Origin: Natronosalvus vescus
GTDB taxonomy: Archaea; Halobacteriota; Halobacteria; Halobacteriales; Natrialbaceae
DNA: 64,000 nucleotides
Assembly: GCF_023973145.1 (NCBI RefSeq)
Contig: NZ_CP099546.1
Span: 62,001 to 126,000 of the forward strand
Reading direction: 5' to 3'
The translations under genes were made by a program, and so were the position numbers. How positions within the stretch are numbered: the first letter of the stretch is position 1; every line of letters begins with the position of its first letter. The notes beneath the pieces are model-generated. The model was given only the letters and a program-made list of their open reading frames with translations. It had not been told where the DNA came from and ran no database searches. Shown in pieces: positions 1-45,297 of the stretch.

Positions 1-808
1 CTCGAGCCTTCGACCCATGGATAAACGTGATCGTTGCTCGTGGAGATGCCCCGTGGCGAACGTCAGGGTGTGAGCGCGTCGCGCCGACGAGGTCGAGGAC
101 GTACCCCTTGACCGGCTGGGCGACGTACGTGTCAGCCACCGCCTGTTGGGCGGCGAGAATGTCATCGGTGGTAATCACCTGCTCGACCATGGCCACACCA
201 AGTTGCGGTTCGGTGTCGAATCGGTCGATGAGTTCGGCTTCGTCGTCCCTGTCAGGGAGGTCGACGGTGAGTTTGAACTGGAAGCGGTCGCGCTGGGCTT
301 CCGGGAGTTCGAAGACGCCCTCCATCTCGATGGGGTTCTGGGTGGCGATGACCATGAACGGCGTCGGCAGTTCGAGCGTCTCGCCTTCGATCGTCACCTG
401 GCGTTCTTGCATCGCTTCGAGAAGCGCACTCTGGGTTTTCGGCGTAGCGCGGTTGATCTCATCGGCGAGAACGAGGTTGGCGAAGATGGGCCCGCGCTGG
501 AGTTCGAACTCGCCGAGATTCTGTCGGTACACGTTGGTGCCGGTGATATCAGCGGGTAAGATATCCGGCGTCATCTGGACACGCCGGTAGTCCAGTCCGG
601 ACGCCCGGGCAAACAAGTTTGCAATGGTCGTCTTCGCGATCCCGGGTACTCCCTCGAGCAGCACGTGGCCGCGGGTCAACAGCGCGACCGTCAGGCTCTC
701 GACGACGTCCTCGTTGCCGACGAGTACCTGACTCACTTCTTCGCGGATGGCCTCGGCGATCGCTTCGGGATCACCGTGGTCCCCGGGATCTGCCTCAGTC
801 TCGGTCAT
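1..808 (-). CDS. moxR: MoxR-family AAA+ ATPase (3' end outside window)
   Basis: Reading the minus strand from the ATG at 808 gives 269 codons that run off the left edge with no stop. The Walker A motif GVPGIAKTT lies near residues 53-61, Walker B LVLADEINR near 108-117, followed by the PKTQSALLEAMQE stretch typical of MoxR proteins. MoxR ATPases are AAA+ chaperone-like enzymes that usually act with von Willebrand/DUF58 partners on membrane or metal-binding client proteins. The start overlaps the upstream DUF4350 gene by 14 bases, so the two are translationally coupled in one minus-strand operon. A DUF58 protein would be expected next, beyond the edge. The ATPase assignment is secure; the client is unknown. 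Confidence 0.93.
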   Translation of the reverse strand, partial: MTETEADPGDHGDPEAIAEAIREEVSQVLVGNEDVVESLTVALLTRGHVLLEGVPGIAKTTIANLFARASGLDYRRVQMTPDILPADITGTNVYRQNLGEFELQRGPIFANLVLADEINRATPKTQSALLEAMQERQVTIEGETLELPTPFMVIATQNPIEMEGVFELPEAQRDRFQFKLTVDLPDRDDEAELIDRFDTEPQLGVAMVEQVITTDDILAAQQAVADTYVAQPVKGYVLDLVGATRSHPDVRHGASPRATITFIHGSKAR

Positions 809-1919
809 GCTCACCACGTTTCAGGTCGAGTTCGTTAAACGCTTCTATGACACGGTTGATGCGCTCGTCATCCCACTCGGGATGGCGACGTCGAAGGGCG
901 GCTGCCCGCTCGGCGTCGGAGAGCCCTGGGTGGGCGCGTTCGACGGCGCGGGCCGTCCGTCGGGAACGGCCGATGGGAAGCCACGCGAGCAGCCGTGATG
1001 GACGGAGTCGCCGACGCGAGCCAACGGCGAGGGCACCGATCCCGAGGAATGCGATCAGCCCCTGGAGGAACGGTGTGTCGCGAACGATTAAGGTCGCGAC
1101 GGCCAGGGGTGGCACCCCTTCGGTGTGACTGACGTCGACGACGGCGTGGGTGCCCTCGTGGGCTAGCGTCGACAGGAAGGCGGCGTTATCCGGTTGCGCA
1201 CGCATTGCGTTGGTCGTGATCGAGGGGTCGCCAACGACGATCACGGTTCCCTCACCGACTGATTCGACCGTGGCGACGGGCAGGGCCTCGAGGTTGTGTT
1301 CATCGGTGAGTTCGTCGTTGGGGCCCTCCGCCCGATAGGCGTAGTCGCTGGTGGTGACGAGCACCGTTGCATTACCTGACTCGACCGCGGTCGCGTAGTT
1401 GAGCGTCAGTTGCTCGACGCCGTCGGTGAGCGAGTGATTCGCGACGCCGGTCGCCACCGGCATTGCCGGGCCCCGGAAGTAGTGCTCCTCATCGCGGATA
1501 ATCTCGCCGTCCAGGCGAGCCTCCGCGCCGACATCCTCGAGCAGGTCGTTACCGTGTGGTTCGAAGTTCTCGAGGACAACGACCGTTCCACCTCGCTCGA
1601 CGAACGCGGCGACGTCGGCCGCAGCCACCTCGTTGTAGGACTCGTCGGGCGCGATGACGAACGCGACCGTCTCATTTGCGTCGAGATCGCCGTACGTAGT
1701 GGTCTCCCGGAGGAGCGTAACCTCGACCTCGGGATCGTCATCGAGGGCCGCGTGAAAGTCGCTGGCGCCGTCCCAGGCGGGATTGTAGGGGCCGAACGCC
1801 TCCGTCGACGTCGAGGCGGCGACGGTCAGCCCGCCGAGTGTGGCCAGCACGATGGCGACGAGAACGACCGTTGGCCAGTCGATTCGCCCGTCGGTGGCGA
1901 GGGGCTCGATTGGGTTCAT
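795..1919 (-). CDS. DUF4350 domain membrane protein
   Basis: This 374-residue protein has an N-terminal membrane segment (about residues 18-36), a long extracytoplasmic domain rich in Asp/Glu with VAAFVERGGTVVVLEN-type Rossmann-like strands, a second membrane segment near 285-303, and a basic cytoplasmic tail. This is the usual shape of DUF4350 proteins encoded beside moxR. Its stop overlaps the moxR start by 14 bases. By gene neighbourhood it is probably a membrane partner of the MoxR/DUF58 complex, possibly in cell-envelope maturation; no catalytic role can be read from the sequence. Confidence 0.85.
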   Translation of the reverse strand: MNPIEPLATDGRIDWPTVVLVAIVLATLGGLTVAASTSTEAFGPYNPAWDGASDFHAALDDDPEVEVTLLRETTTYGDLDANETVAFVIAPDESYNEVAAADVAAFVERGGTVVVLENFEPHGNDLLEDVGAEARLDGEIIRDEEHYFRGPAMPVATGVANHSLTDGVEQLTLNYATAVESGNATVLVTTSDYAYRAEGPNDELTDEHNLEALPVATVESVGEGTVIVVGDPSITTNAMRAQPDNAAFLSTLAHEGTHAVVDVSHTEGVPPLAVATLIVRDTPFLQGLIAFLGIGALAVGSRRRLRPSRLLAWLPIGRSRRTARAVERAHPGLSDAERAAALRRRHPEWDDERINRVIEAFNELDLKRGEHDRD

Positions 1920-1950
1920 CGGCGGCCCTCGGGGTTCCGTGGTGGCTCAC

Positions 1951-2232
1951 TCATATGGGGAGTACCTCCGGTGGGAGGATCTCGAGGATCCGCCTGATTA
2001 CGATGACGCCGAAGCCGACGAGACCAAGCGCGATGAGCCAGCCCAGTCGCCGCCGCCAGCGTGGTGCGACGTTCAGGGGTGCGGTGAGTTCCGTGACGAT
2101 CAGGAAGCCGATGAGCGAGCACACAAAGAAGAGTTCGTACGACAGCGATCCTACGAGGGCGAGCAACAACGCCGTTACGAGCATCCAGGCGACCTGCCCG
2201 TGGATAAACCGTCGACGGCGTGTCGTTGGCAT
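1951..2232 (-). CDS. Small membrane protein, first gene of the moxR operon
   Basis: This 93-residue protein begins with a basic MPTTRRRRF segment followed by three hydrophobic stretches (about residues 14-34, 35-50 and 64-80). It lies 31 bases upstream of the DUF4350 gene on the same strand, so it is probably the promoter-proximal cistron of the MoxR operon. I recognise no family beyond small haloarchaeal membrane proteins found beside moxR. A promoter is expected just upstream of 2232, but I see no clear TATA element in that GC-rich stretch. Confidence 0.7.
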   Translation of the reverse strand: MPTTRRRRFIHGQVAWMLVTALLLALVGSLSYELFFVCSLIGFLIVTELTAPLNVAPRWRRRLGWLIALGLVGFGVIVIRRILEILPPEVLPI

Positions 2233-2428
2233 CTATCAGAGTAAGTGGTTGGCTGGTATGTAAGTCTCTCGGGAACTCCACTCGAGCATGGCGTGAATTC
2301 CCGTTCGAACCGTGCCTGCGTGTACTGCTTCCGTCTCACCGACGGGTTGGATGTCCCTCAAGCGGTGGTCTCCTACTACCCACCGTTGTATCGCGAGCGA
2401 ATCCCACCGATTGCGATGGGTGGCGATC

Positions 2429-4696: not shown

Positions 4697-5494
4697 CGCA
4701 AATCCCCCTCATGTGGTATGTGTTGTGATCTATCATATAGGTGTTGGCTAGTCAACTATTTTGGAGCTATATTTTAAGCACGATATCACTTGGACACAAT
4801 ACTCGGAGACGGATTGGCGGTTTGGCCGATAGAATAAACAACACCGAATGTGTGAGTGTGAGATACGTGGGGAGGGGGGAGACATTGTTAGTCAGTTAAC
4901 ACGGATATCCCCAGTAGCCAACCACGCTCCCCACGTGTGATTACCGGCTCCCACAGCCGGTTTCTGTGACTCCAAGTGAACCATTAGTCGGTTCTCGAGA
5001 CTCGAACCTGGCTGAGGCTATTCTCGTGTGTGGACAAGACGTTCGGACGGAGGGTTACACGAAGTCAAGGAGAAAGCCCACGACTGCAGTCGTCCTCAGA
5101 TTGCGGAGCGTTCTGATGGGCTGCACAAGACCTTGAGTGGTCTGCGATCCCTCTGAATATTAGTTGCCAAGCAACTCTACGCAGTACCGTTCGATCCAGA
5201 GTGGGCCATCGCTCGAGTGTTTAAATCAAAAGCTGATCACTCTCGGTCTTGTGAACGAGGGATGACTCCTCCCCCAACCCCCATCAAAACCACAATGCTT
5301 AGCGTTCGTCGGAATCACGGGATTCGAGGCGGTTGGGGTTCCTGGCGCGTAGCATCGCTGGCCGCACATCATGGGAGTCCTTCTTGAGGGGTTCGACGAG
5401 ATGATCCGAAATCCAGTAGACAAGACCCACTCGCTTCTCGCAAATGCACCGTCTCGAGAACTAGTGATCGGTCTGGCGATTGCGGTCACGCCAG
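4697..5494. other. 800-base intergenic region with inverted repeats and possible transposon debris
   Basis: No reading frame here is convincing. The first 150 bases are AT-rich and probably hold the promoter of the coiled-coil gene. Around 5080-5105 the sequence contains an AGCCCACGACTGCAGTCGTCC hairpin resembling the right end of IS200/IS605-type elements, and about 5163-5177 holds AGTTGCCAAGCAACT, a perfect short palindrome. I see no intact transposase. The right part (5226-5490) has short open frames on both strands without recognisable motifs. Confidence 0.3.
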
Positions 5495-8400
5495 CTACGA
5501 TTGATCGACAGCCGCTCCGTGGAGTCGCACACCGAGCACCGACAGCACGGCGATCAGGGTGACGACTACGCCGAAGCCGGAGATAGTGTCGTCATCATCG
5601 TCGGTCACTTCGGAGTCGTCGTCATCGCTCGTAACCTCGTCTACGCTATCGTCGGTCACTTCGGAGTCGTCGTCATCGCTTTCAATCTCGTCTACGCTAT
5701 CGTCGGTCACTTCGGAGTCGTCGTCATCGCTCGTAACCTCGTCTGCGCTATCGTCGTCAGTTGCGTCCGAGTCGTCCGACCCGTCGGCGTCGGTTCCGTC
5801 GTCCGGATCTTGCTCCGGCTCGACGACTATTTGGCCGAGCAACTCGCCCGCCATCGCCAGGTCGTAGGATCCTGCCGTGGTAAACTGGTGTTCGAGCGTG
5901 ATCGTCTCGACCGATCCGCTCGCCACCGTCACGGTCATCTCGTCGACGATTCCGTCGTCGACGAGGAGCTCGACGGTGGTCGTGCCCTCGGCGTCGCCGA
6001 CGTTCTCGATCTCCACAGTGACTGAAATCGACTCGTTCACCGTGAGGGTGGTGTCGCTGGCGTTCGTCACAGTGACTTCGAACTCAGGTTCGGGTTCAGG
6101 TTCGGGTTCAGGTTCGGGGTCAGGGCTCGGCAACGGTGGCTCATCTCCCGATGGCGATTCGTCGTCTGTCACCTCGACGGGATACGTTTCACTGACTCCT
6201 GCGCTCCAGAGCCGGAACCGGTACGTGTCGGGTTCGAGTGGCGTCTCTGGCAGTTCGAGGACGAATTCGATGGTGACGTTCTCGTCGGGTGCGAGCGTGA
6301 CGTTTCGTGTCGATTTAGCGTACGTGGTCGGTGCGGTGAGTACCGCATCTTCCTCAAGACGCAGGTAGTGACGGAGATCGGCGATCGGTGTGTCGCCGAC
6401 GTTCTCGATCGTCGCCTCGACGGTGACGGTTCCGCTGGTTGCGATCGTCTCCGGCGCGTCGAAGGCAGTTACCTCGATTTCGGGGCTGGGCGGAAGTTCG
6501 ACCTCCTCGGTCACCACCGCGTTCGCTTCGATCTCGACGCCGTCGACGGTACCTTGTTTGTATCCGTCTGCCTGCACGACGACGTCGTACGTCCCGACGT
6601 CGACTTCCATCTCGAAGCCCCCTGACGAATCGGTTGGTAACGCGGCCACGGATGTGCCGTCACCGTCGAACAGGATGACGTCGGCACCGACGACCGGTTC
6701 GTCCGTTTCTGCGTCTGTCACGGTACCAACGAGCGTTCCCGTCTCCGGTGCTTCCGGCACGAGCGTAACGTCGTGAGTCGCCCCATCGCCCACGTCGACC
6801 AACGGGAATTCGGAGATGTAACCATCTGCGTGATACTCGATAGTCGTCAAGCCGGCTGGTGCGTACAGCTCGTACCAGCCGCTCTCGTTCGTCATCGCTG
6901 TGTCGACGGATCCGTCGGTGTCGGTGGAGATCACCGTCGCCCCCTCGATGGGCACCCCGGTCTCGTCGTCGGAGACCGTGCCGCTCAACACTGGGTGCGG
7001 CGTCAGTTCGATTGGATCGTACGTCACTCGTTCGCCATCGTCGACTTCGATGTTTTGTCGATATCCGTCCTCATACCCCGCCGCGAGGACGTCCATCTTG
7101 AAGACGCCCTCGACCAGGGCCACGTCGTAGACGCCGTCGGCGTCCGTCGACGCCGTAGTGGTGAAGCCACCCTCGAGGTCTCCTGGGCTTCCGACGCCTT
7201 CCTGCTGGACGATCTCGAGCGTCGCGCCCTCGATCGGCTCGCTAGTGTCTGCATCGAGGACAGTTCCGGTGAGTGAGGCCGTCACTGCCACCAATTCGAT
7301 GTCGACGGTCGCCGTCTGGTTCTCGACCACCTCGACATCGGACTCTGCCGCCGTCTCGTACCCGTCGGCAACCACGTCGACCGTGTACGTTCCGGACGCG
7401 ATCGGGAGGTCGAACGTCCCGTCGACGTCCGTCTCGACGGACTCGGTGACCGTTGATCGATTGGTCGCGGTGATCGTCGCGCCCGCGACCGGGTCGCCAG
7501 TGTCGGCATCGGTCACGGTGCCCGCGATCGTCCCTGACTGACCGGGCGGCGTCTCGAGCCAGGGAGTGAACAGGATCCACCCCTCCCATGCCCCGTCAGT
7601 CTCGAGTGAGTCGCCGCTACCGTCGGCGACGACACCTGTCTCGGGATCTTCCTCGCCACCGCTCGGTCCGTCGGCCGCTCCCCACCAGTTGTTCCTCGCG
7701 TCTAGGTACTCGACACCGCCGGCGTAGATGAGTCCTTTCTCGTTGCCCGTGATGGCGTTTTCGCTGACGGTGACGTTCTGATCTCCGCCAACTGTGATGC
7801 CAATTGCGGCGTTGTTCTCGATGGTGTTCCCGACGATCGAGACGTTTTCGAGGTCGGTCGCCCCGCTTCCGGTGAGGTACATCCCTTCCTCGTTGGCCCG
7901 GACGGTGTTGTTCGCGATCGAGCCACCAACGCCGTCGATTTGCGCATAAATTCCTCGCTCGAAGCTACCGATCACCGTGTTCCCCTCGATAACGGTTCCG
8001 TCGGCGCTGTCCAGTTCGATGCCGTGTGTACCGCTCGCGGTGACGGTGTTGTTCGTGACCGAGACGTCGTATACCCGGAGCTGCGAGGCCCCGAGGTCGA
8101 GGCCCGCCTCGTTCGCGCCGTGGATCGTGTTTTTGTCGACGAGCAGGTGCTCTGCGTTCTCGATGAAGACGCCGCGATCGATGCCCTCAATCTCGTTCTC
8201 GAAGACGTGGAGGTGATCGGCGCCATCAGCGTGGATCCCCCACCCGGTTCCCTCGATTGCGTTACCCGAGACAGTCGTCGGGGTTTCGAACTCGGCGCCG
8301 TAGTCGGTTCTGATCGTAACCCCCGCGTCGTCGGCATTCGAAACCTCGTTGTCGGCGATCGTTGCCCCATCACTGTCGGCGACGAAGATTCCTGACAAGT

Positions 8401-11400
8401 CCGTGTCGGCGATCTCGTTTCGCTCGACCGTAGCGTCGGGGGAGTGCCATATCGAGATCGTACCACCGCCGAAGGCGTGGTCGGCCGGCGACGTCGTGAT
8501 CGTGTTGTCGGTAATGGTCACGCCCTCACTATGAGTGACCTGGACGCCCGCGACGATGTCTTCGAACTCGAGTCCGGAGACGTTGGCGTTCGTGGCGCCG
8601 ACGAGGATCACCTGACCGGCGTCGGCGTCGACCTCGAGTCCGAACCCACCGGTGGCGTAGTACAGTGGGTCTCCGCCGACGGTGTTGTCTAGCATCAAGT
8701 GTGGGTTGTCGTCCAGATCCGCCGGAACCTGCCAGAGCAGGACGCCCGTGTCGAAGCTGTTGTCCTGGATCGTGTGGCCCACTCCGTCCTCGATCAGCAG
8801 GTCGGTGTCGTGCCCGGAGACCGTGTTGTTCCGCACCGTGACGTCGTCATAGTCGAGGTGGATTCCGATCTCTCCCGCGTCCGCGACGACGTTGTCGATC
8901 ACGCTCGAGTCGCCGTTCGGCCTGATGCCGGTTCCTTCGACGTTCTCGATCGCGTTTCGGGCGATCGTCGACTCGTGACTGGTTCGAATCCCACCCGAAA
9001 GCAGGACGTCGCCGCTGTCGTCGTTTGCCGCGAGGTAGTTGTCGGTAACGGTCGCCCGCAGATCGACGGTGATCCCACCGTCGTTGCCCGTCACGATGTT
9101 GTGCGCGACCGTCGCGTCGTTCATGTGGCTGAGTAGGACGGCCCCGCCCCGGTTGTCGTGAATCTCGTTGTCGGTGATCTGGACGTACTCGGCGTTGGGC
9201 TGCTCGCCGATGATCGCGTGCCCGTCGTTTCGAGAGATGTCGTTCGCGACGATCGCGTGTCCGTCTCCGCTGACGATCGCGACGGCCGTCCCGTCGTTGT
9301 CGACGATCTCGTTGCCGAACAGTACCGACTCGTCGGAACTTCCTCGGAGGACGACCGCGGTACCCGAGTCTGCGACCGTACTGTCGCGCAGTTCGAACGC
9401 CGACCCGTCGACGTGGACTGCGCCGGTGAGTCCCGACGCCGTGTAGTTTCTCACTGTGAACCCATCGACGGTGACGTCGTCCGCCGTCACCTCGAGTGCG
9501 CTCTCGAGCGTGTCGTTCCCCTCGAGGATCGTCTCCCCGTCGCCGACGGCCTCGAGCGTCAGCCCCTTGACGTCGATCGAGAGCGACTCCTCGAACGTTC
9601 CGGGGGCGACGTAGATCGTGCCCCCAGTCGCCGCGTCGATCGCGTCCTGGATCGATTCGTTCTCCTCGACGCGGTCGTACACGCTGACCTGTCCGGCGAA
9701 CCGATCGTCGACCGTGACGGTGTAGGTTCCCGGGCTGAGGTCGAGCAGGTAGAGGGTCGACGTCGCCGTGGTCGTCTCACCCGGTGCCAGTTCCTCGTTG
9801 ACATAGTGTCGCTGGCCACCCTCGCGGTTGCCGCCCGCATTGTAGACGTCGATGTTGAATCCCCGCGCAGTCGACTCCTCGGTGCCGACGTGTTCGATCG
9901 TGAACTCGACCTCGACCGGGTCGTCGACGCTAACCGTCTCGGCCACCGCGGCGTCGGTCACTTCGAACGGTTGGGTGGCTTCGAGCGTCCCCGCGTAGAG
10001 TCCCTCGACCTCGACGGTGTACGTCCCCGGGTCGAGGTCGATCAGGTGGTGAGTCGCCGTCCGGGTGAACGTCTCGCCGGGTTCGAGTTCCTCGTTCACC
10101 ATCGACGTGCCGCCCCCGACCCGATCACCGTCTTCGTCGTAGATGTCGAGGTCGTAGCCCGTCGCGTACTGGTCGGTGTCGACGACGTTCTGGATCGTGA
10201 ACTCGACCTCGACCGGGTCGTCCGGCCCCTTCGTTGGATTGGCGACGGACGCGTCGACGACCGGCGTCGCGTTCCGCACGTGTAGATAGCCCGCGTACTC
10301 GTCCTCGACGGCTACGAGGTACGTCCCGGGGCCCAGATCGGCGTGGTAGAAGGTCGTCGTTCGAGTGGCGTTCTCACCGGGCTCGACCTCCTCGTTGATC
10401 ATCGACCGGACGCCGGCGGCGTACTGGCCGTCCACGTCGTAAACGGTGAGGTCGAAGCCTCGGGCTTCCTGGGTGGTGTCGACGACGTTCTGAACCGTGA
10501 ACTCGACCTCGAACGGCTCCTCGACGCCGACCGTCCGGTTGGAGATATCGGTACCGGCGACCTCGAACGGATCGCGGATCTCGACGGTGTCGATCTCGAG
10601 GCCCTCTACGACGACCGTGTACTCGCCCGCTCGCTCGACCTCGACCGCCCAGAGCGTTGGCGACGCCGTCGCCGTCTCACCGGGCTCCAGCTCCTCGTTG
10701 ATGTAAAACGTCGCCCCGGTCGTTCGATTCCCCTCGGAGTCGAACAGTTCGTACTCGAAGTCGCGCGCCTCGGCGGTCGTGTTTCCGACGTTCTCGACGG
10801 TGAACTCCAGTTCCAGGTCGCCCTCGAAGCCGACGGTGTCGGCGGTGACCGACCCGTTCGTGACGCCGATCGTCTCGTAGACGCCGACCGTCCCCGCGTC
10901 GACGCCTTCGACTTCGACGGTGTACAGTCCATCCTCGAGGTCGAGTAAGTAGAGGGTCGACGTCCGAGTGAACGTCTCGCCGGGTTCGAGGTTCTCGTTG
11001 ACATTATGTTGCTGGCCACCGACACGGTCGCCATCCGCGTCGTAGACGTCGATGTCGTAACCGCCCGCTTCGTGCGTCGTGTTAGCGACGTTCTGGATCG
11101 TAAACGAGACCTCGAGTGGATCCTGAACGCCGATGGCCTCCGGAACCGACGCGTTCGCGACGCCGATCGTCTCGTAGACGCCGAATGTCCCCGCGTCGAC
11201 GCCCTCGACTGCAGCGGTGTACAGTCCCTCTTCGAGGTCGAGCAGGTAGAGGGTCGACGTCGCCGTGGTCGTCTCACCCGGTGCCAGTTCCTCGTTGACA
11301 TAGCGTCGCTGGCCTCCGACGCGGTCGCCAGCATCGTCGTAGACGTCGATGTTGAATCCCCGCGCGGTCGACTCCTCGGTGCCGACGTGTTCGATCGTGA

Positions 11401-12619
11401 ACTCGACCTCGACCGGGTCGTCGGTACCGATTGCCTCCGGTGCTACGGCGTCGGTCACTTCGAACGGTTGGGTGGCTTCGAGCGTCCCCGCGTAGAGTCC
11501 CTCGACCTCGACGGTGTACGTCCCCGGGTCGAGGTCGATCAGGTGGTGAGTCGCCGTCCGGGTGAACGTCTCGCCGGGTTCGAGTTCCTCGTTCACCATC
11601 GACGTGCCGCCCCCGACCCGATCACCGTCTTCGTCGTAGATGTCGAGGTCGTAGCCCGTCGCGTACTGGTCGGTGTCGACGACGTTCTGGATCGTGAACT
11701 CGACCTCGACCGGGTCGTCCGGCCCCTTCGTTGGATTGGCGACGGACGCGTCGACGACCGGCGTCGCGTTCCGCACGTGTAGGTAGCCCGCGTGCTCGTC
11801 TTCGACAGTGACGAGATAGGTTCCCGGCCCCAGATCGGCGTGGTAGAAGGTCGTCGTTCGAGTGGCGTTCTCACCGGGCTCGACCTCCTCGTTGATCATC
11901 GACCGGACGCCGGCGGCGTACTGACCGTCCACGTCGTAGACGGTGAGGTCGAAGCCTCGGGCTTCCTGGGTGGTGTCGACGACGTTCTGAACCGTGAACT
12001 CGACCTCGAACGGCTCCTCGACGCCGACCGTCCGGTTGGAGATATCGGTACCGACGACCTCGAACGAATCGCGCATGACGATACTATCGACAGGGCGTCC
12101 GTCGACGGCGACGGTGTACGTACCGGGCACCTCGAGATCGGCACCCAGCGACACCTCGTACGCGCGCGTGTCGCCGGGTCGAAGAATCACGTCGGTTGTT
12201 CCGTGGGCGGTCGCCACCGTCTCGCTGTCGGCGTCGAGGAGCGTGACCTGCCCACCGAGTGGTTGCGGCCCGAGACCGGCGTTGCGCATCGTCACCTCGA
12301 CGGTAACGTTCTCACCGAGTGCGACCGTCTCGTCAGGGACGTCCGCCTCGACGAACTCGAGCCAGCCACCTGTTCCCACGGTGCTCGTGGACGTCACCGA
12401 CACAACGGCATTCGCTCCCTCCTCACCCGGAAACACGTCCCAATCGGAACCGTCGACGTGGTGGTGCTCAGAGGCGCCACTGTCGCTACTCGCGAGTGCC
12501 AACCCCCCGGTTACTCCACCCATCAGCAAGATCGTTGTGAGAACGAAAAACGCAATCCCGACCGATATCGGAACTAGCCACAACCGATGGCTCCACTTCC
12601 AGTTACTCCACCCTTTCAT
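5495..12619 (-). CDS. Giant multidomain surface protein: CARDB-like repeats, beta-helix, carboxypeptidase-regulatory repeats, C-terminal anchor
   Basis: This 2374-residue exported protein begins with a basic/hydrophobic N-terminus (membrane or signal segment about 15-45). Residues about 80-980 hold eight or more tandem CARDB-like Ig modules with recurring VEVEFTIQNV, EELEPGET and DLxPGTYTV motifs. Residues about 985-1650 form a right-handed beta-helix with many parallel repeats ending in an NNWWG motif. Then come four carboxypeptidase-regulatory-like beta-sandwiches (GTVTDADTGDPVAGA and similar, about 1690-1970) and further CARDB-like modules around a PEPEPE linker near 2170. A thrice-repeated DDDDSEVTDDSVDE stalk precedes a C-terminal segment containing SGFG and a membrane helix, a PGF-CTERM-like archaeosortase signal. 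It is probably an adhesin or S-layer-associated protein. A segment of about 600 bp is duplicated almost exactly inside it. Confidence 0.88.
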   Translation of the reverse strand: MKGWSNWKWSHRLWLVPISVGIAFFVLTTILLMGGVTGGLALASSDSGASEHHHVDGSDWDVFPGEEGANAVVSVTSTSTVGTGGWLEFVEADVPDETVALGENVTVEVTMRNAGLGPQPLGGQVTLLDADSETVATAHGTTDVILRPGDTRAYEVSLGADLEVPGTYTVAVDGRPVDSIVMRDSFEVVGTDISNRTVGVEEPFEVEFTVQNVVDTTQEARGFDLTVYDVDGQYAAGVRSMINEEVEPGENATRTTTFYHADLGPGTYLVTVEDEHAGYLHVRNATPVVDASVANPTKGPDDPVEVEFTIQNVVDTDQYATGYDLDIYDEDGDRVGGGTSMVNEELEPGETFTRTATHHLIDLDPGTYTVEVEGLYAGTLEATQPFEVTDAVAPEAIGTDDPVEVEFTIEHVGTEESTARGFNIDVYDDAGDRVGGQRRYVNEELAPGETTTATSTLYLLDLEEGLYTAAVEGVDAGTFGVYETIGVANASVPEAIGVQDPLEVSFTIQNVANTTHEAGGYDIDVYDADGDRVGGQQHNVNENLEPGETFTRTSTLYLLDLEDGLYTVEVEGVDAGTVGVYETIGVTNGSVTADTVGFEGDLELEFTVENVGNTTAEARDFEYELFDSEGNRTTGATFYINEELEPGETATASPTLWAVEVERAGEYTVVVEGLEIDTVEIRDPFEVAGTDISNRTVGVEEPFEVEFTVQNVVDTTQEARGFDLTVYDVDGQYAAGVRSMINEEVEPGENATRTTTFYHADLGPGTYLVAVEDEYAGYLHVRNATPVVDASVANPTKGPDDPVEVEFTIQNVVDTDQYATGYDLDIYDEDGDRVGGGTSMVNEELEPGETFTRTATHHLIDLDPGTYTVEVEGLYAGTLEATQPFEVTDAAVAETVSVDDPVEVEFTIEHVGTEESTARGFNIDVYNAGGNREGGQRHYVNEELAPGETTTATSTLYLLDLSPGTYTVTVDDRFAGQVSVYDRVEENESIQDAIDAATGGTIYVAPGTFEESLSIDVKGLTLEAVGDGETILEGNDTLESALEVTADDVTVDGFTVRNYTASGLTGAVHVDGSAFELRDSTVADSGTAVVLRGSSDESVLFGNEIVDNDGTAVAIVSGDGHAIVANDISRNDGHAIIGEQPNAEYVQITDNEIHDNRGGAVLLSHMNDATVAHNIVTGNDGGITVDLRATVTDNYLAANDDSGDVLLSGGIRTSHESTIARNAIENVEGTGIRPNGDSSVIDNVVADAGEIGIHLDYDDVTVRNNTVSGHDTDLLIEDGVGHTIQDNSFDTGVLLWQVPADLDDNPHLMLDNTVGGDPLYYATGGFGLEVDADAGQVILVGATNANVSGLEFEDIVAGVQVTHSEGVTITDNTITTSPADHAFGGGTISIWHSPDATVERNEIADTDLSGIFVADSDGATIADNEVSNADDAGVTIRTDYGAEFETPTTVSGNAIEGTGWGIHADGADHLHVFENEIEGIDRGVFIENAEHLLVDKNTIHGANEAGLDLGASQLRVYDVSVTNNTVTASGTHGIELDSADGTVIEGNTVIGSFERGIYAQIDGVGGSIANNTVRANEEGMYLTGSGATDLENVSIVGNTIENNAAIGITVGGDQNVTVSENAITGNEKGLIYAGGVEYLDARNNWWGAADGPSGGEEDPETGVVADGSGDSLETDGAWEGWILFTPWLETPPGQSGTIAGTVTDADTGDPVAGATITATNRSTVTESVETDVDGTFDLPIASGTYTVDVVADGYETAAESDVEVVENQTATVDIELVAVTASLTGTVLDADTSEPIEGATLEIVQQEGVGSPGDLEGGFTTTASTDADGVYDVALVEGVFKMDVLAAGYEDGYRQNIEVDDGERVTYDPIELTPHPVLSGTVSDDETGVPIEGATVISTDTDGSVDTAMTNESGWYELYAPAGLTTIEYHADGYISEFPLVDVGDGATHDVTLVPEAPETGTLVGTVTDAETDEPVVGADVILFDGDGTSVAALPTDSSGGFEMEVDVGTYDVVVQADGYKQGTVDGVEIEANAVVTEEVELPPSPEIEVTAFDAPETIATSGTVTVEATIENVGDTPIADLRHYLRLEEDAVLTAPTTYAKSTRNVTLAPDENVTIEFVLELPETPLEPDTYRFRLWSAGVSETYPVEVTDDESPSGDEPPLPSPDPEPEPEPEPEPEFEVTVTNASDTTLTVNESISVTVEIENVGDAEGTTTVELLVDDGIVDEMTVTVASGSVETITLEHQFTTAGSYDLAMAGELLGQIVVEPEQDPDDGTDADGSDDSDATDDDSADEVTSDDDDSEVTDDSVDEIESDDDDSEVTDDSVDEVTSDDDDSEVTDDDDDTISGFGVVVTLIAVLSVLGVRLHGAAVDQS
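9951..10553. repeat. Internal direct repeat, copy B (in giant surface gene)
   Basis: This stretch is nearly identical to 11448-12050, offset by exactly 1497 bases (499 codons), so the reading frame is kept. Only scattered substitutions are seen, clustered near 10310-10345. Both copies encode two CARDB-like modules containing GVRSMINEEVEPGEN and GGGTSMVNEELEPGET. Weaker similarity continues to about 9737 on one side. Confidence 0.85.
11448..12050. repeat. Internal direct repeat, copy A (in giant surface gene)
   Basis: This is the partner of 9951-10553 at a 1497-base offset. The DNA-level near-identity is higher than that between other neighbouring modules of the same protein, so the duplication is recent or maintained by gene conversion. 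Confidence 0.85.
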
Positions 12620-12844
12620 GCAAACGGTCTACATTCTATCGAATTAAACACTCACTAACGGATAGGTAACCTATTCGATAACTTCTGGGTAACTTCTCTT
12701 ATCGGATGTGCAGGCACAAAACCTCGCCCTTCCGGGCGCGGATGATGTCAATTGTGTAGAGAAGAACTGGCGTTCCGAGGTACACCGATGTGAATTCGGG
12801 CGGATCGTCGGGGCACTCTCCGTCTCGTCGTCGATCGCAGACGA
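12620..12844. other. Intergenic region between two surface-protein genes
   Basis: It contains the upstream region of the giant surface gene. At about 12724-12737 a CGCCC/GGGCG hairpin is followed by GGATGATGTCA, similar in layout to the right ends of TnpB-type elements seen elsewhere in this window. It could equally be a terminator for minus-strand transcription. No coding frame is seen. Confidence 0.3.
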
Positions 12845-13580
12845 TTAGGCTCGTCGCATCTGACGAAATTGCTGACGACCGAACAGGAGCGCTCCGAGGA
12901 CGATTATGACGGCGGCAGCACCGGCGGTGAAGCCGGGAATACTGCCATCATCGTCGTCTTCCGGAACCTCATCTGCATCATCAACTTCTAGGGTTCCGTC
13001 GTCGTCTTCCAGGGTTTTGTCGTCGGTGTCGGACGAATCGTCGTCAACGGAACCGTCATCCTCGTCCGCGTCTCCGTCCTCGTCATCAGCGGCATCCTGC
13101 GTATCATCTTTGCCGTCCGCGTCGTCCGCGTAATCCGAGCCACCCGAGCCATCCCCGTCATCTGGGTCGTCGTCAGCGTCCTCGTCCGATTCCGCGACCG
13201 AGAACGTCAGCGTCTCGGTCACATCGTTACCCGCCTCGTCAGCGACGTGGAGTGTTACGGTGTAGCTTCCGCCGTCAGTGACCTGGTGGGTGTGAGTCGC
13301 TCCGGTCGATTTGATCGTCGTCTGTTCGGGATCGGTCTGGGACTCGCCGTTGACGAGCAACTCGATCGAGCTTACGTCGACGCCCGAGAGGTCATCCTGG
13401 TAGCTGAACTCGAGAGTAACGGTCTCGGTTCCCGCGTCGAACTCGTGGCCGTCGACAGGTTCGATCAGGTCGATTGTTGGCGCCGTCGTGTCGGAGATCA
13501 CAGCGCCGTACGTCGAGAAGCCCGACACGTCAGCGACGAGGTACGGGTCGTCGCCGATATCGTAGTCGAGGTCAGGGCGC
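12845..13580 (-). pseudogene. Headless C-terminal part of a PGF-CTERM surface protein
   Basis: The frame encodes a surface-protein C-terminus: LVADVSGFSTYGAVISD, an Ig-like domain with ATHTHQVTDGGSYTVTLHVAD, a long Asp/Glu/Ser linker, then PEDDDDGSIPGFTAGAAAVI and a membrane helix with a basic end. That is a standard PGF-CTERM anchor. No signal peptide or natural start exists: upstream of about 13575 the frame switches to unrelated basic residues. The N-terminal body was therefore lost at a rearrangement junction, where another headless tail begins on the opposite strand. Confidence 0.7.
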
Positions 13581-13779
13581 CACGGACTCCGATTCGGATG
13601 GGTCGTCCGACGACAGCGCGAGTGGGAGCGATGACGACAGCGATTCCCCGGACAATCGCGAGGTGGACGACCAATCGCCCGGATTTGGACTTGCACGCGC
13701 TCTCGCAGGGCTTGCTCGAGCTGGCTATTGGCTTCGAGAACGCGTCAGTACGGATGCTGATCAGGAGGACGACCCGTGA
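13571..13779 (+). pseudogene. Headless C-terminal tail of a second surface protein, opposite strand
   Basis: The plus strand from about 13576 reads ATDSDSDGSSDDSASGSDD, then a DDQSPGFGLARALAGLARAG hydrophobic segment and an RERVSTDADQEDDP end. This is an Asp/Ser-rich linker plus a PGF-type anchor. Nothing upstream in frame is protein-like. It meets the minus-strand tail back to back within about 15 bases, which marks an inversion or deletion breakpoint. Confidence 0.6.
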
Positions 13780-13901
13780 TGGGAGTCTGTCTCATCGTTC
13801 CATAGAACACGAGCAACGATGCCTGGCGATCGTGGACTGCGAGTAAGTTTTGTTCTCTTCGGCTTTCTCAACGAATCGATTGAGACATTGCCTAGCGGTC
13901 G

Positions 13902-15185
13902 TTACCAGGTCAATCCTTCGTAGATGATCCCGTCTCGAGGCTCGACGATTCGTCGCCCATCTACGACGACCGGTGTGGCCATCGCGTCGAATTCCTCATC
14001 CAAGGTGGCGAACTCATCCCAACCGGTGACGACGAGCGCACCGTCGCTGCCCTCGAGGGCAGCTTCCACGGATTGTGCATACTCCACGTCCGGGAAGCGC
14101 TCTCGCATCGGGTCGATAGCGACCGGATCGTAGGCGACGATATCGGCGCCCGCTTTCTGGGGGGACTCGAGGATCGGGATCGCTCGCGAGTTCCTAATAT
14201 CGTCCGTTTGGGGTTTGAACGCGAGGCCGAGGACGGCGATTCTGGCGCCCTCGAGGTCGACGTGGCTTTCGAGCAGGTCGAGCAGCCGCTCGGGTTGGCG
14301 CTCATTGATCTCGACGGCGGCCTCGAGTAAGGCTGGGTCGTACCCGTGCTGGGTGGCAGCGGCAATGATGGCCGCGACGTCTTTGGGGAAACAGGAGCCA
14401 CCCCAGCCGACGCCACTACGCAGGAACTGATCTGAGATGCGGTCATCGAGGCCGATGGCGTCCATCACCTCGTAGGCGTCGAGACCGAACTCCTTGCAGA
14501 TGTTACCGAGGTCGTTGACCAGGCTGATCTTCGAGGCGAGGAAGGCGTTGTTGGCGTACTTGATCATCGAGGCCGTCGCCGGGTCGGTGTCGACGATTGG
14601 AACCGATTGTTCCTCGAGCAGGGGCTCGAACACGGCCTGCAGTTGGTCGGTGGCCCACTCGGAATTGGTGCCAAAGACGAGTTTATCGGGATTCTGGAAG
14701 TCTGCGACGGCGCTCCCCTCTCTGAGGAATTCGGGGTTCATGCCCACCTCGACCTGGTCGTTGTTCGCACCGCGTTGGATCGCGGGCTCGAGCGTGTCTT
14801 GGATACTCATCGGCGTCACCGTACTCTTGATGACGACGAGATGTCGGTCGGCTTTGTCGGCAAGGGCTTCGCCGGTGGCTTCGGCAGCCGCCTCGAGTGC
14901 GCTCAAATCAATACTCCCGTCGGGGTTCGAGGGCGTCCCGATGGCGAGGAAGGTCACGTCCGAATCGGGAATGGGGTCGTAGGATGTTGTGGCCTCGAGG
15001 GAGTGCTGGGTGTGGGTCTCGAGGAGGTCGTCCAGTCCGGGTTCATCGATGGGGGCCGTGCCGTCGTTGATCGCCTCGACGATGGCCTCGTCGATATCGA
15101 TGGCCGTGACCTGGTGTCCTAAATCAGCAAAACAGGCCGCCATTGTCGTCCCGACGTAGCCGCTCCCGATAACCGTAATGTGCAT
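13902..15185 (-). CDS. aglM: UDP-glucose 6-dehydrogenase (AglM-like)
   Basis: The ATG at 15185 gives 427 residues. The N-terminal NAD-binding motif is GSGYVGTTMAACFADLGH (about 6-23). The catalytic segment GVGWGGSCFPKD with the active Cys lies near 255-266, and a C-terminal domain contains AVLGLAFKPQTDDIR. The enzyme oxidises UDP-glucose to UDP-glucuronate, a precursor of haloarchaeal N-glycans. Upstream in-frame codons could extend it but overlap the opposite-strand nucleotidyltransferase region, so the ATG immediately before the Rossmann motif is preferred. It is divergent from the aglF-like pair and shares a promoter region of about 110 bases with it. The symbol follows Haloferax usage and rests on function, not proven orthology. 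Confidence 0.9.
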   Translation of the reverse strand: MHITVIGSGYVGTTMAACFADLGHQVTAIDIDEAIVEAINDGTAPIDEPGLDDLLETHTQHSLEATTSYDPIPDSDVTFLAIGTPSNPDGSIDLSALEAAAEATGEALADKADRHLVVIKSTVTPMSIQDTLEPAIQRGANNDQVEVGMNPEFLREGSAVADFQNPDKLVFGTNSEWATDQLQAVFEPLLEEQSVPIVDTDPATASMIKYANNAFLASKISLVNDLGNICKEFGLDAYEVMDAIGLDDRISDQFLRSGVGWGGSCFPKDVAAIIAAATQHGYDPALLEAAVEINERQPERLLDLLESHVDLEGARIAVLGLAFKPQTDDIRNSRAIPILESPQKAGADIVAYDPVAIDPMRERFPDVEYAQSVEAALEGSDGALVVTGWDEFATLDEEFDAMATPVVVDGRRIVEPRDGIIYEGLTW

Positions 15186-15294
15186 TGAGTGCGTCGTGTT
15201 GCTGTGGTGCGATGAACGTTGTGATCTTCGCGAAGGTGTTGGTGCACTGGCAAGCCAGAAAGTTATTGTATGGTGGGTTAACAGGATTACCCTG

Positions 15295-16041
15295 ATGAAA
15301 GCAGTCGTACTCGCTGGGGGGAAAGGTACGCGACTCCGACCACTGACTGATAACAAACCGAAGGGGATGGTCGAGGTCGCCGAAAAGCCAATCTTGACGC
15401 ATTGTTTCGATCAGTTGCTCGAGTTGGGTGCCGACGAATTCGTCGTCGTCGTGGGCTATTTGAAAGAGAAGATTATCGATCACTACGGGGACGAGTATGA
15501 AGGTGTCCCGATTCAGTACTGCCATCAGCGCGAACAGAAGGGGTTGGCCCACGCGTTGTTGACCGTTGAAGAGCACATCGACGACGACTTCATGTTGATC
15601 CTGGGGGACAACATCTTCGAGGCGAACCTGGGCGATGTGGTTCGCCGACAGCGCGAGGAGCGTGCGGATGCCGCGTTCCTGGTCGAGGAAGTGCCCTGGG
15701 AGGAGGCCTCGCGCTATGGGGTCTGTGATACGAACAAGTACGGCGAGATCACCGACGTGGTCGAAAAACCCGAGGAGCCGCCGTCGAATCTCGTGATGAC
15801 CGGGTTCTATACGTTCACGCCGGCGATCTTCCACGCCTGTCATCTGGTGCAGCCCTCGAACAGGGGGGAGTACGAAATCAGCGAGGCCATTGATTTGTTG
15901 ATTCAGAGCGGGCGTACCATTGACGCGATCGGCATCGACGGCTGGCGGATCGACGTTGGCTATCCCGAGGATCGGGACGAAGCCGAGCGGCGACTCGAGG
16001 AGGGGGTTGAAGGCGAGGTTGCTGTCGCTTCGGACGATTAG
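15295..16041 (+). CDS. aglF: Sugar-1-phosphate nucleotidylyltransferase (AglF-like)
   Basis: The ATG at 15295 gives 248 residues. The signature LAGGKGTRLRPLTDNKPKGM (about 6-25), the GDN metal site near 101-104 and VVEKPEEPPS near 158 define the glucose-1-phosphate uridylyl/thymidylyltransferase family. The product is a nucleoside-diphosphate sugar used in glycan assembly, most likely UDP-glucose feeding the divergently encoded dehydrogenase. A close paralogue follows 45 bases downstream; the two share the HQREQKGL/HQREQRGL and VVEKPEEPPS/IVEKPEEPPS segments. Confidence 0.88.
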   Translation: MKAVVLAGGKGTRLRPLTDNKPKGMVEVAEKPILTHCFDQLLELGADEFVVVVGYLKEKIIDHYGDEYEGVPIQYCHQREQKGLAHALLTVEEHIDDDFMLILGDNIFEANLGDVVRRQREERADAAFLVEEVPWEEASRYGVCDTNKYGEITDVVEKPEEPPSNLVMTGFYTFTPAIFHACHLVQPSNRGEYEISEAIDLLIQSGRTIDAIGIDGWRIDVGYPEDRDEAERRLEEGVEGEVAVASDD

Positions 16042-16086
16042 AACTGTACAAGCGGTTTTTTGGGTCTGAAAGTAATTCCCTCGAGC

Positions 16087-16797
16087 ATGCAGGGTGTCGT
16101 TCCAGCGGCCGGTGAGGGAACCAGACTTCGGCCGATGACTACTGATCAGCCGAAAGGCCTCCTCGAGGTGAACGAGCAGCCACTCCTTACCCACGTATTC
16201 GAGACGTTACTCGAGGCGGGCGTGAACGAACTGGTCGTCGTCGTGGGACATCTCGGCGAACAAATCATCGACTACTACGGTGATGACTTTCGAGAGGTAC
16301 CGATCACGTACGTCCACCAACGTGAGCAACGGGGACTCGGCGATGCGGTATCACTGGCGGAACCCAACGTGGAAGGATCGTTCGTAGTGTTGAACGGTGA
16401 CAACGTCTTCATCGATGGGATTGAGTCCGCTGTTGAGCGCATGACCGAGGCCGACGTGGACGCCGTCCTGGCTGTCGAGTCGGTCGATCGCGAACAGGCT
16501 CAAGAGACGGGTGTCCTCGAGGTCGAGGGGGATCGGGTGACGACCATCGTGGAGAAACCCGAGGAGCCGCCGTCGACGCTGGTGACGACCGGGTGTTACG
16601 TCCTCCCCGAAGCCATCTTCGATGCGCTCGCGCTGGCCCAACCATCGGAGCGCGGGGAGTACGAACTCAGCGAAGCTGTTGACCTCCTGGTGCAGGCGGG
16701 GTTCGTTGTGGAACCGGTCAAGATAGCTGGCGATCGAGTCAACGTGAACACTGAGGAAGATCTCAAGCGGGCGAGTCAGTTACTCGAGGATCCCTAG
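16087..16797 (+). CDS. Second sugar-1-phosphate nucleotidylyltransferase, paralogue of the preceding gene
   Basis: The ATG at 16087 is chosen because the family motif begins at once (MQGVVPAAGEGTRLRPMT). The 236-residue protein keeps the GDN metal site and the EKPEEPPST motif but differs from its neighbour in the substrate loop (TTDQPKGLLEV against TDNKPKGMVEV). The pair probably arose by tandem duplication followed by specialisation for different sugars. It is cotranscribed with the upstream gene. Confidence 0.85.
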   Translation: MQGVVPAAGEGTRLRPMTTDQPKGLLEVNEQPLLTHVFETLLEAGVNELVVVVGHLGEQIIDYYGDDFREVPITYVHQREQRGLGDAVSLAEPNVEGSFVVLNGDNVFIDGIESAVERMTEADVDAVLAVESVDREQAQETGVLEVEGDRVTTIVEKPEEPPSTLVTTGCYVLPEAIFDALALAQPSERGEYELSEAVDLLVQAGFVVEPVKIAGDRVNVNTEEDLKRASQLLEDP

Positions 16798-16894
16798 GAG
16801 TTTCGGGCATTATTGTAAACAGCATGTATCCCAGCAAAAATAGTCGCTCAGGTGAATACTCGTCTACTCTGTTCTGATCCGTGGAGTGCTGGAA

Positions 16895-18178: not shown

Positions 18179-18323
18179 TGGGGGCGTTCATGCTGAAAGC
18201 TTCGGAGACATTGACTGTCGTGAAGCGATAATTAACGAGCTAGCTAGGTGGCTACTCCGCCGTTATCCATGTCTTTTTCCCTCAAATCAGTAGGGTGTCG
18301 ACAGATCGGATCAGAAGACGACG

Positions 18324-19309
18324 CTAGGAGTTTCTGACCAGCGGATCGTACCAGTCCTGATTCTCGCGATACCAGTCGATGAATTTGGCGACGCCCTCAC
18401 GGATATCCGTCGTAGGTTCATACCCGATGAGGTCGTTGGCCTTCGAGATATCGGCGTGGGTGTGTTCGGCATCACCCTCTCTGGGTTTGGTGAACTCGAG
18501 CTCGAGACTCGGATCGATCTCGTCGCGGATAACCTCGGCGAGGGTTTTGATGTCGATGTTATCGGTGGAGCCGACGTTCATGATCTCGCCGTCGGCCCGG
18601 TCGTCCTCGAGGAGCTGTTCATTGACGCGGATGATATCATCGACGTAGGTGAAATCCCGTGTTTTCGAGCCGTCACCGTAGATCACGGGTGGCTCGCCGT
18701 GGAGACACCGCGAGACGAAGTTCGTCATCGCCATGTTCGGGCGCATACGCGGGCCGTACACGGTGAAGTAGCGCAGGGAGACCGTCGGCAGGCCGTAGAT
18801 CTCGTTGTAGACGCGGGCGTACTGTTCGGTAGCGAGTTTGGAGACGCCATATGGGGAGACAGGTTCCGTAGGGTGTGCCTCGTCGTAGGGCAGGTACTCG
18901 GGTTTGCCGTACACCGAGGAGGAGGAGGCGACGACGACCCGGTCAACGTCGTGTGTACGGGCCGCCTCGAGGACGTTGATCGTCCCATCAACGTTGTAGG
19001 CGTTGACCTTCTTGGGTTCCTCGACGCTCTTTCTGACGCCCGCCTGGGCGGCTTGGTGGTAGACGACGTCAGCGTTCGCGACGAGGTCATCGACGAGTGA
19101 CTCGTCGGTGATCGAGCCCTCGACAAACTCGTAGGTTGCGTTGGCTTCGTCTGCGGCGTCTTTGGCCGCCTCGATGTTGTGTTTCTTGATTCCGAGATCG
19201 TAGTAGGGCTCGAGGTTATCGAGTACGGTTACGTCGTGGCCGGCACTAGCGAGACCTTCTGTGATGTGGCCGCCAATGAAGCTCCGCCGCCTGTTACGAG
19301 AATTTGCAT
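18324..19309 (-). pseudogene. NAD-dependent nucleotide-sugar epimerase, frameshifted in the glycine motif
   Basis: From the ATG at 19309 the protein starts MQILVTGG, then one base is missing between about 19283 and 19291. Restoring it gives GSFIGGHITEGLASAGHDVTV and a full 328-residue extended-SDR epimerase with the SSSVYGKP, YGVSKLATE (Tyr-Lys catalytic pair), RYFTVYGPRMRP and TRDFTYVDD motifs. Everything after the shift is one clean open frame to 18324. The lesion hits the NAD-binding TGxxGxxG loop. It may be a true recent inactivation or a sequencing slip in GC-rich sequence. The family makes UDP-galactose- or UDP-GalA-type sugars. Confidence 0.8.
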
Positions 19310-42485: not shown

Positions 42486-43365
42486 GGCGCTCACGGCCAT
42501 CTGTGACCGACTCGAGACGCTCGAGAACCAGAACCACCGACTCACCGACCGCGTCGACGACCTCGAACGCGATCTCGAGCAGACCCAGACGAAACTCGAC
42601 CAGACACAAACCGATCTCGAGGCACTCGAATTGGAGAACGAACAGCTTCGCAATCGCCTCGAGAGCCACCAGACCGACCTCACCCAGACCACGGCCCTCA
42701 CCGAGGCCACCCGCAAACGCACGGGCGCCAACAAAACCCGCCTCGCGGAACTCCAGGCGCGCGAACTCGAGAAGGGTGCGCACCTGCTCGCCGACGGTGT
42801 CGACCCCGATGAGATCGATATCGTGGGTGACCACCTCGAGCGATTCACCAAGGACGATGGGCAGACCTACGTTCGCCTACCCGATCATGACGACCCGCTC
42901 GAGCGCGGTGGCTCGCCGACGCTCACCCACGGCGATCTCCTCCCGATCCAGCAACTCGCTCGGATGGACGACGACATGCTCCGATCCACCACGAACGCCC
43001 TGCCCACCAGACTCGCTGCCACGCTGTGGAACGCACGGGTGGACTCGAGTGTGGGTGACAACCCGTGGCAATCGGGCTGCAAGGGTATCAAGGAGTACGT
43101 GAAAGCCAGTGACCTCAAACATTGGATCCGCCGCCAAGAGCGCGGTGTCAGTGACGCGTATGCAAAGAAGCTCGTCTCGAGAACCATCGATGCCCTCCTC
43201 GACCTCTCACACAATCGAGTGGCCGTCCGGAAACGCACCGAACGAAAGAACGGCCTCGAGTACACTGAACGTCGACTGATCATCCCGATAGATGCAGCAA
43301 TCCCTGGTGAGACAGGCACCTCGAGTGAGTCCACACCACCGGAGACAGCTGACGTCCTCGGGTAA
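42478..43365 (+). CDS. Coiled-coil plus winged-helix-like protein; parent copy of the repeated gene tail
   Basis: This is a 295-residue protein. Residues 1-100 are a strong coiled coil rich in Leu/Glu/Gln (LENQNHRLTDRVDDLERDLE). Residues about 110-290 are globular, with GDLLPIQQLARMDDDMLRST, LAATLWNARVDSSVGDNPW and KGIKEYVKASDLKHWIRRQE. A basic KKLVSRTIDALLDLSHNRV, then RKRTERKNGLEYTERRLII segment looks like a DNA-binding winged helix. It is the only complete copy. Its 3' end and/or flanking sequence recurs at about 44.39-45.12, 47.48-47.74, 48.85-49.08, 50.26-50.35 and 50.88-51.0 kb. A plasmid maintenance or replication-accessory role is plausible but unproven. Confidence 0.75.
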   Translation: MSEALTAICDRLETLENQNHRLTDRVDDLERDLEQTQTKLDQTQTDLEALELENEQLRNRLESHQTDLTQTTALTEATRKRTGANKTRLAELQARELEKGAHLLADGVDPDEIDIVGDHLERFTKDDGQTYVRLPDHDDPLERGGSPTLTHGDLLPIQQLARMDDDMLRSTTNALPTRLAATLWNARVDSSVGDNPWQSGCKGIKEYVKASDLKHWIRRQERGVSDAYAKKLVSRTIDALLDLSHNRVAVRKRTERKNGLEYTERRLIIPIDAAIPGETGTSSESTPPETADVLG

Positions 43366-43560
43366 CCATGGACATCCTCGAATAACCTCCCTCGAGAGAG
43401 GCCTTACATCTCACACAAATACCTGAACCACGCGCTGGGACGGTCTGTTAGTGGGTTGGTTACTGGACAGTGGGTCGCTCGAGCTGTCCTCGGCAGTCAC
43501 ACAACGAGACACCACCACAGCGGTCACCGAAGACGACGACTGTCCACGGTGAACCACTCC
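43366..43560. repeat. 3' flank of the repeated gene, copy 1
   Basis: Non-coding DNA after the parent gene contains CCATGGACA at the stop, TCGAGAGAGGCC, GGTCTGTTAGTGGGTTGGTT, ACAGTGGGTCGCTCGAGC and CACCGAAGACGACGACTGTC. The same ordered landmarks recur after copies 2 and 3, so the flank was copied together with the gene tail. Confidence 0.8.
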
Positions 43561-43662
43561 ACAGCAATTCCCAGTCGAGTACAGAGAGAGAGAATATGAC
43601 GAGTCTCAATCACAGGGATCCGTCAGTTTCCTGAACGCTCACCGGTGGGTTCAAGACGCTGC

Positions 43663-43677
43663 GTAAGGAACCCTTAC
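43663..43677. promoter_or_regulatory. Inverted repeat at the antitoxin start
   Basis: A perfect GTAAGG-AAC-CCTTAC inverted repeat ends five bases before the ATG of the AbrB-type antitoxin. AbrB/MazE-fold antitoxins commonly bind such sites to repress their own operon, so this is a candidate operator. Confidence 0.4.
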
Positions 43678-43682
43678 ATAGA

Positions 43683-43943
43683 ATGAGTACCGATCCCGAA
43701 GTAACGACGGTCACCTCGAAGGGGCAGATCACGATTCCAAGTCGGCTTCGTGAGCAGTTCGGCCTCGAAAAGGGAACGAAACTGATGGTCGTACCGACGG
43801 AGTACGGCCTCGTCTTAAAAAAGATTGATCTTCCATCGGTCGAAGAGTTCCAGAAACGCGTCGAACAACGTGAGAAAAACGTTGAGCTCTCGATGGACGA
43901 GGTCAGCCGACTGGTACACGACGCACGAGGCGCTGATGAATGA
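43683..43943 (+). CDS. AbrB/MazE-fold antitoxin (VapB-like)
   Basis: This 86-residue protein has the swapped-hairpin AbrB core VTTVTSKGQITIPSRLREQF, then EKGTKLMVVPTEYGLVLKKI, followed by an acidic helix (EEFQKRVEQREKNVELSMDE) that would wrap the toxin. It neutralises and co-represses with the PIN toxin, whose ATG overlaps its stop by four bases. A palindrome lies directly upstream. Confidence 0.88.
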   Translation: MSTDPEVTTVTSKGQITIPSRLREQFGLEKGTKLMVVPTEYGLVLKKIDLPSVEEFQKRVEQREKNVELSMDEVSRLVHDARGADE

Positions 43944-44356: not shown

Positions 44357-44387
44357 AGACCACGACGAGCCTCGAGGAACGCTAAGC

Positions 44388-44928: not shown

Positions 44929-45297
44929 CCATGGACACCCCTGTATGAACACCCTCGAGAGAGGCCATACCTCTCACAGGAATACCTGAACCACGTACTC
45001 GAGCGGTCTGTTGGTGGGTTGGGTACTGGACAGTGGATCGCTCGAGCAGTCCTCGGCAGTCATCGCAGAAGACGGGCTTAGGTCAGCCACCGAAGACGAC
45101 GACTGTCCACGGCTACAGATCATCGTATTTCCACTACCTCGAGTGGAGAGCAGCCACCTTTGTCGACGGTTAAGGCGAATACCCCATCCTTCAGATCGGG
45201 GTGTTGAGGAAGTCGTCACAGCTGCTGTGGCCATCATCACACGACATAATTGGGATAGATACTAAACTATTAGTTCTCGTGGGATGTAGTGTGAGCA
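44929..45297. repeat. 3' flank of copy 2 and junction
   Basis: The landmarks CCATGGACACCCCTG, TCGAGAGAGGCC, GGTCTGTTGGTGGGTTGG, ACAGTGGATCGCTCGAGCAG and CACCGAAGACGACGACTGTC repeat in the order seen after copy 1, up to about 45115. After that comes an unrelated segment with a CCCCATCCTTCAGATCGGGG hairpin (about 45181-45202), similar to the right ends of TnpB-type elements. Confidence 0.75.

Follow-up and report, generated by a model that had tools for sequence, protein, structure and literature searches.

Organisation of the locus

The window, that is, the whole stretch of DNA that was analysed, comprises 64,000 nucleotides (positions 62001-126000) of a genome that consists of a single contig of 3.84 Mb. 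Between a large surface-protein gene and aglM, it contains two open reading frames that overlap head to head. The minus-strand frame (12845-13696) encodes a C-terminal acidic linker followed by IPGFTAG...FGRQQFRQMRRA, and the plus-strand frame (13474-13779) has the C-terminus DQSPGFGLARALAGLARAGYWLRERVSTDADQEDDP. A preliminary description took these frames for two headless surface-protein tails lying back to back, which proved correct, as both are the 3' ends of genes, herein called A and B, that are intact elsewhere. The features relevant to the locus are as follows, where G001 and G004 denote two congeneric genomes and G000 the genome under study.

6..2272: flank that anchors the locus on the left; G001 and G004 are collinear with it (DNA identity 72.4% and 72.7%), orientation relative to the tails unchanged
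5495..12619, minus strand: intact gene for a 2374-aa beta-helix surface protein, left of the probable scar
12845..13571, minus strand: tail A, the C-terminal 241 aa encoded by a giant surface-protein gene that has been truncated; it covers the end of the body, an Ig/CopC-like domain, the acidic linker and a PGF-type tail
13568..13574: very probable deletion junction, between 13571 and 13572, with AGG common to both partners
13572..13779, plus strand: tail B, the C-terminal 68 aa from another truncated surface-protein gene, with an Asp/Ser linker and an SPGFG tail
13780..13901, plus strand: the 3' flank that gene B had originally and that remains joined to tail B; over 100 nt it is 76% identical to the region flanking the intact G000 gene B
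13902..15185, minus strand: aglM (UDP-glucose 6-dehydrogenase; NF041297, 737.3 bits, cut-off 670), the intact right neighbour of the tails
15178..16041, plus strand: sugar nucleotidyltransferase (PF00483) adjoining aglM, right flank

The 2374-aa gene has its tail and 3' flank in common with the intact gene A of a second locus in the same genome. On the other side, aglM is found at the same position in G001 (84.6% DNA identity), and its closest matches in a named collection, among the best 80 of 174 loci, belong to Natronococcus, Natribaculum and other haloarchaea. The nucleotidyltransferase, whose start is likely the internal ATG of MKAVVLAGG, is also collinear with G001 and adjoins both other copies of gene B. 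Rfam gave zero matches over the window, and a scan with bacterial promoter and terminator models, which are not apt for archaea, returned nothing.

Several further elements were noted in the window. A short sequence with a GC-rich palindrome at 12699-12752 recurs in several other haloarchaeal genomes at 79-91% identity; in one locus (L160) it precedes a 422-aa ORF and is repeated in part on the downstream side of that ORF. It resembles a solo IS605-type element end (PATE). Four diverged stretches within 43025-49057 (74-82%) match one place, G000:C1:3186868-3187388, and form a repeat family. In addition, a TnpB-like ORF with a Cas12f1-like TNB domain (72.5 bits) occupies 52871-54136 on the minus strand and shares 88% DNA identity with a stretch of genome G006.

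The two tails and the exact breakpoint

DNA searches against the own genome resolved the locus into two adjoining matches. Window 13111-13571 corresponds to G000:C1:3236747-3237204 (83% DNA identity), and window 13572-13898 corresponds to G000:C1:3210076-3210431, in a second gene; within the latter, 13572-13626 aligns with G000:C1:3210431-3210377 at 84% and position 13655 onward with G000:C1:3210309 onward at approximately 79-82%. Because these matches split cleanly, the breakpoint is placed at 13571/13572, so that homology both supports and sharpens the earlier proposal of a rearrangement breakpoint at a shared divergence point near 13571-13590. Past it, the apparent N-termini of both ORFs are only the antisense of the opposite tail, in agreement with the view that neither tail has a signal peptide or N-terminal domain. 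The tail-B segment runs beyond its stop codon to about 13898, up against the aglM stop. The tail matches reach E = 9.9e-134 and 5.6e-60 in the own genome, values that exclude chance similarity.

The assignment of the tails to the PGF class was only partly upheld. Tail A does contain IPGFTAG and tail B has an SPGFG tail, but both fail the curated cut-off (24.5 bits) of the PGF-CTERM model TIGR04126, with tail A at 12.3 bits and tail B unreported. Among the intact homologues, A passes at 30.3 bits and B falls just under the cut-off at 22.5 bits. Neither tail contains stops or frameshifts, and dN/dS (131 codons) is 0.18-0.22 for tail A against the three intact copies and 0.23-0.34 among the intact copies themselves. 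The tails are now most likely remnants that lack signal peptides and are presumably not expressed.

Intact counterparts in the same genome and in relatives

Tail A is the 3' end of a gene of 3462 aa (G000:C1:3227223-3237611, plus strand) with beta-helix, NosD and CARDB domains, whose leader, MKPRHSQRPAHIRILAILFSLLMIGSVVAPVAAA, was judged by eye to be a hydrophobic signal. Its DNA identity to the gene A copies is 83% in the own genome, 80% in G001 and 85% in G004. Tail B is the 3' end of a CARDB-containing gene of 1197 aa (G000:C1:3210185-3213778, minus strand), and the leader of this gene, MIEFGLGRRDVLRSG, with RRDVLRSG, appeared twin-arginine-like, likewise by eye. The intact pair exists at the second locus of the own genome (3.210-3.238 Mb), where B runs leftward and A rightward, and in both congeners; the two genes lie head to head and point apart (<-B ... 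A->) in all three intact arrangements. The preliminary description would have been undermined by homologues that start at the breakpoint with a genuine signal peptide; instead, the three intact homologues of each tail run into long heads there.

In G001, the intact pair occupies the same chromosomal place, between the same left flank and the same right flank of aglM and nucleotidyltransferase. Its left part consists of the flank (window 6-2272), other surface and regulator-like genes and gene A (minus). To the right of gene A come three minus-strand genes, then gene B on the plus strand, aglM on the minus strand, two plus-strand nucleotidyltransferases and a minus-strand epimerase. All five window segments compared (6-2272, 13063-13567, 13630-13780, 13897-16806 and 18322-19309) have the same order and strand in G001. 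Between the segments 13063-13567 and 13630-13780, G001 carries 22,222 bp that are absent from the window and include both gene heads. The corresponding distance between matching ends is 14,819 bp in G004, where the pair is a mirror image, and 26,315 bp in the own second copy. Since gene content between 2272 and 12845 differs in the window from that in both congeners, more than one event has shaped the locus. Synonymous distances among the locus copies give orders of divergence that disagree from segment to segment.

Wider searches placed the arrangement in context. No junction-spanning match was present among the matches listed from 60 relatives. A BLAST search of the best 80 of 174 aglM loci gave no match for the tails, the intact genes A and B, the 2374-aa gene or the left flank, all 124 rows being aglM at less than 82% identity, and a protein search with genes A and B against the best 80 of 174 named aglM loci was empty. 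Viral contigs, in which it was not expected, did not yield the junction pattern.

Deletion as the very probable origin of the paired tails

The back-to-back tails are very probably the scar of one deletion between divergent surface genes. In the ancestral locus, a minus-strand gene A and a plus-strand gene B would have pointed apart (<-A ... B->), with intervening DNA that in G001 corresponds to three further genes. A deletion reaching from inside the body of A to a point close to the end of B would have removed both heads and everything between them, approximately 15-26 kb going by the three intact arrangements, and brought the tails together. The exact breakpoint, the intact homologues with their head-to-head orientation, the collinear flanks and the absence of orphan heads are all observed. 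The earlier argument that no simple deletion could bring together two tails so oriented is mistaken; a divergent pair yields exactly this product, and because A and B point apart and are intact in G001, a deletion suffices for the structure. The loss may have been tolerated thanks to the diverged second copy at 3.21-3.24 Mb, in which A and B are both intact. With neither tail interrupted by stops or frameshifts, the loss looks fairly recent relative to the age of the copies. Cut-and-paste transfer of the missing middle to 3.21 Mb was considered and rejected: each place has its own pair of tails, and the two pairs are about 17% diverged, so the second locus must be a diverged copy rather than the piece that was lost.

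The preliminary description held instead that an inversion or other recombination between surface genes was required, and saw in it a hint of surface-protein variation. A programmed or occasional DNA inversion with its breakpoint at 13571 would account for two truncated genes of opposite strand meeting at one point. Inversion keeps the gene heads, which should then lie elsewhere in the genome. The missing N-terminal halves were searched for as proposed: in the own genome, the first 1400 aa of gene A found the intact gene and distant relatives only (next best 45% identity), and gene B without its tail found, apart from the intact gene, a single stretch with 65% DNA identity, so that no split gene with both halves kept was recovered. 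In addition, flanks and tails all agree in order and strand with the intact G001 locus. No strong invertible repeats stand out within 12500-14100, which holds five inverted pairs with short arms (12-25 nt, 71-92% complementary), mostly acidic-codon runs. No recombinase gene adjoined the segment among the subset of window ORFs given to Pfam. An inversion is extremely improbable, and nothing supports phase or antigenic variation. Recombination programmed by an insertion sequence was also rejected, as the sequence at 12699-12752, the only one in the vicinity that was noticed to resemble an element, is some 820 bp away from the junction and does not coincide with a breakpoint.

That the tails are real small genes, or decoys with their own starts, would fit their open, stop-free reading frames; it is very unlikely given that their upstream codons are antisense to the opposite tail, that a signal peptide is lacking and that every intact homologue continues upstream. 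An assembly artefact joining two collapsed repeats draws on the presence of a second similar locus in the genome, but the flanks on both sides are collinear with G001, the genome is a single contig, and with a divergence of about 17% between the tails and the other copy a false join is likewise very unlikely. More weight, though still clearly the lesser share, falls to import by homologous recombination (deletion-coupled insertion) of a fragment whose tails were already joined. Across the genus, the surface/agl region has a patchy distribution: close homologues of genes A and B were found in three of eight genomes (own, G001, G004) and close aglM in two of eight, and the nearest relative of the own genome by the rpoB region is G007, for which no match to gene A, gene B or aglM was reported. 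Deletion-coupled insertions are described for Haloquadratum in the accessible portion of PMC3119063. Against import, none of the matches listed from the 60 relatives has the same junction, and the joined DNA would still have to originate by deletion. Import is thus a variant of the deletion explanation and compatible with it, in which the deletion could have happened outside the own lineage.

Junction sequence

The window reads GTAGTCGAGG|TCAGGGCGCC at the junction; the corresponding sequence in the intact genes of the own genome is GTAGTCGAGG|GACGTG for A and CATTCCAGGT|TCAAGCCGC for B. Comparison of the three gives AGG (3 bp) as the common sequence. Gene B of G001 and G004 has GAGGTTCAAG at this place; judged from these congeners, the ancestral shared stretch may have been up to five bases, GAGGT. 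Under the deletion reading, the probable route would be end joining at 3-5 bp of microhomology or a slipped short repeat. When genes A and B were joined at random 200,000 times, at least 3 bp were shared in 6.6% of the junctions and at least 5 bp in 0.8%; because the 3-bp overlap is met at this frequency by chance, the sequence suggests, and does no more than suggest, microhomology joining.

Tail exchange and remnants in the surface/agl cluster

Other comparisons point to exchange of tails within the cluster. Two surface proteins of G001, one 1661 aa and the other 1743 aa long (2294213, 2313762), are only 27% alike outside the tail, and their tails share 94% DNA identity over 148 nt across the stop codon, or 83% over 515 nt with the acidic linker included. 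Similarly, the end of the own gene A (3237474-3237818) matches that of the 2374-aa gene (window 5299-5626) at 74% over 349 nt, extending about 207 nt beyond the stop, and the four copies of gene A show a conserved body followed by four different tails. The longer tail alignments are inflated by convergent acidic repeats; the match beyond the stop codons is hard to explain without tail exchange. PGF tails thus appear to move between genes, although this is not proof. As a tentative extension, with the odds against it, the surface cluster of the genus may be undergoing ongoing recombination with acidic-linker repeats as switch points, at which neighbours trade PGF tails and an occasional miss produces deletions like the present one. 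If true, tail exchange would be a source of surface-anchor diversity in haloarchaea, and exchange between neighbouring surface genes is a more interesting lead than the deletion and can be tested comparatively.

Remnants of aglM were observed in the same cluster. The second copy (G000:C1:3209913-3209919) and G004 (C13:14434-14505) retain only the last approximately 160 nt of aglM beside gene B, and both break near the equivalent of window 14058-14064, at a CCTCGAGG palindrome. An extra aglM piece of 118 nt in G001 (C1:2320635-2320749) ends at the same equivalent position; the sequences beyond the break differ. Within the surface/agl cluster of the genus, the window copy has lost the heads of its surface genes, and the second copy and G004 have lost most of aglM. 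Furthermore, the aglM beside gene B in G001 (C1:2326983-2328266) has one in-frame TAA stop, and a second aglM at 684 kb in that genome is 57% identical to the window aglM.

Comparison with known systems

Several haloarchaeal systems offer parallels. Dyall-Smith et al. 2011 (PMC3119063) described deletions in Haloquadratum walsbyi and Halobacterium salinarum that range from 10 bp to 34 kb and lie at short direct repeats, many of them 4-20 bp long; they also mention divergent transposase genes that have shrunk to a pair of short C-terminal remnants. As far as the available portion of that paper goes, the resemblance lies in the haloarchaeal host and the truncated genes left behind, and the transposase remnants have the geometry seen here; the present case differs in that only three junction bases are certain and in that surface-protein genes, not transposons, were hit. 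Microhomology-mediated end joining with deletions is known from Haloferax volcanii, according to the accessible text of PMC7521656. Deletions at broken DNA through short common sequences are shared with that system; there the breaks were induced experimentally, whereas here a scar alone is available. A variable surface-glycoprotein gene cluster shaped by mosaic recombination is represented by GI1 of Haloquadratum walsbyi (PMC4535781), where the text consulted reports neither duplications nor inversions among the compared islands. The locus resembles GI1 as a variable surface-gene cluster and differs in genus, in genes and in holding a diverged second cluster copy within one genome. Altogether, head-to-head surface genes can decay into a look-alike of an inversion scar, and a false lead for surface variation by DNA inversion is removed; the present scar is a new instance of the deletion process already described in haloarchaea.
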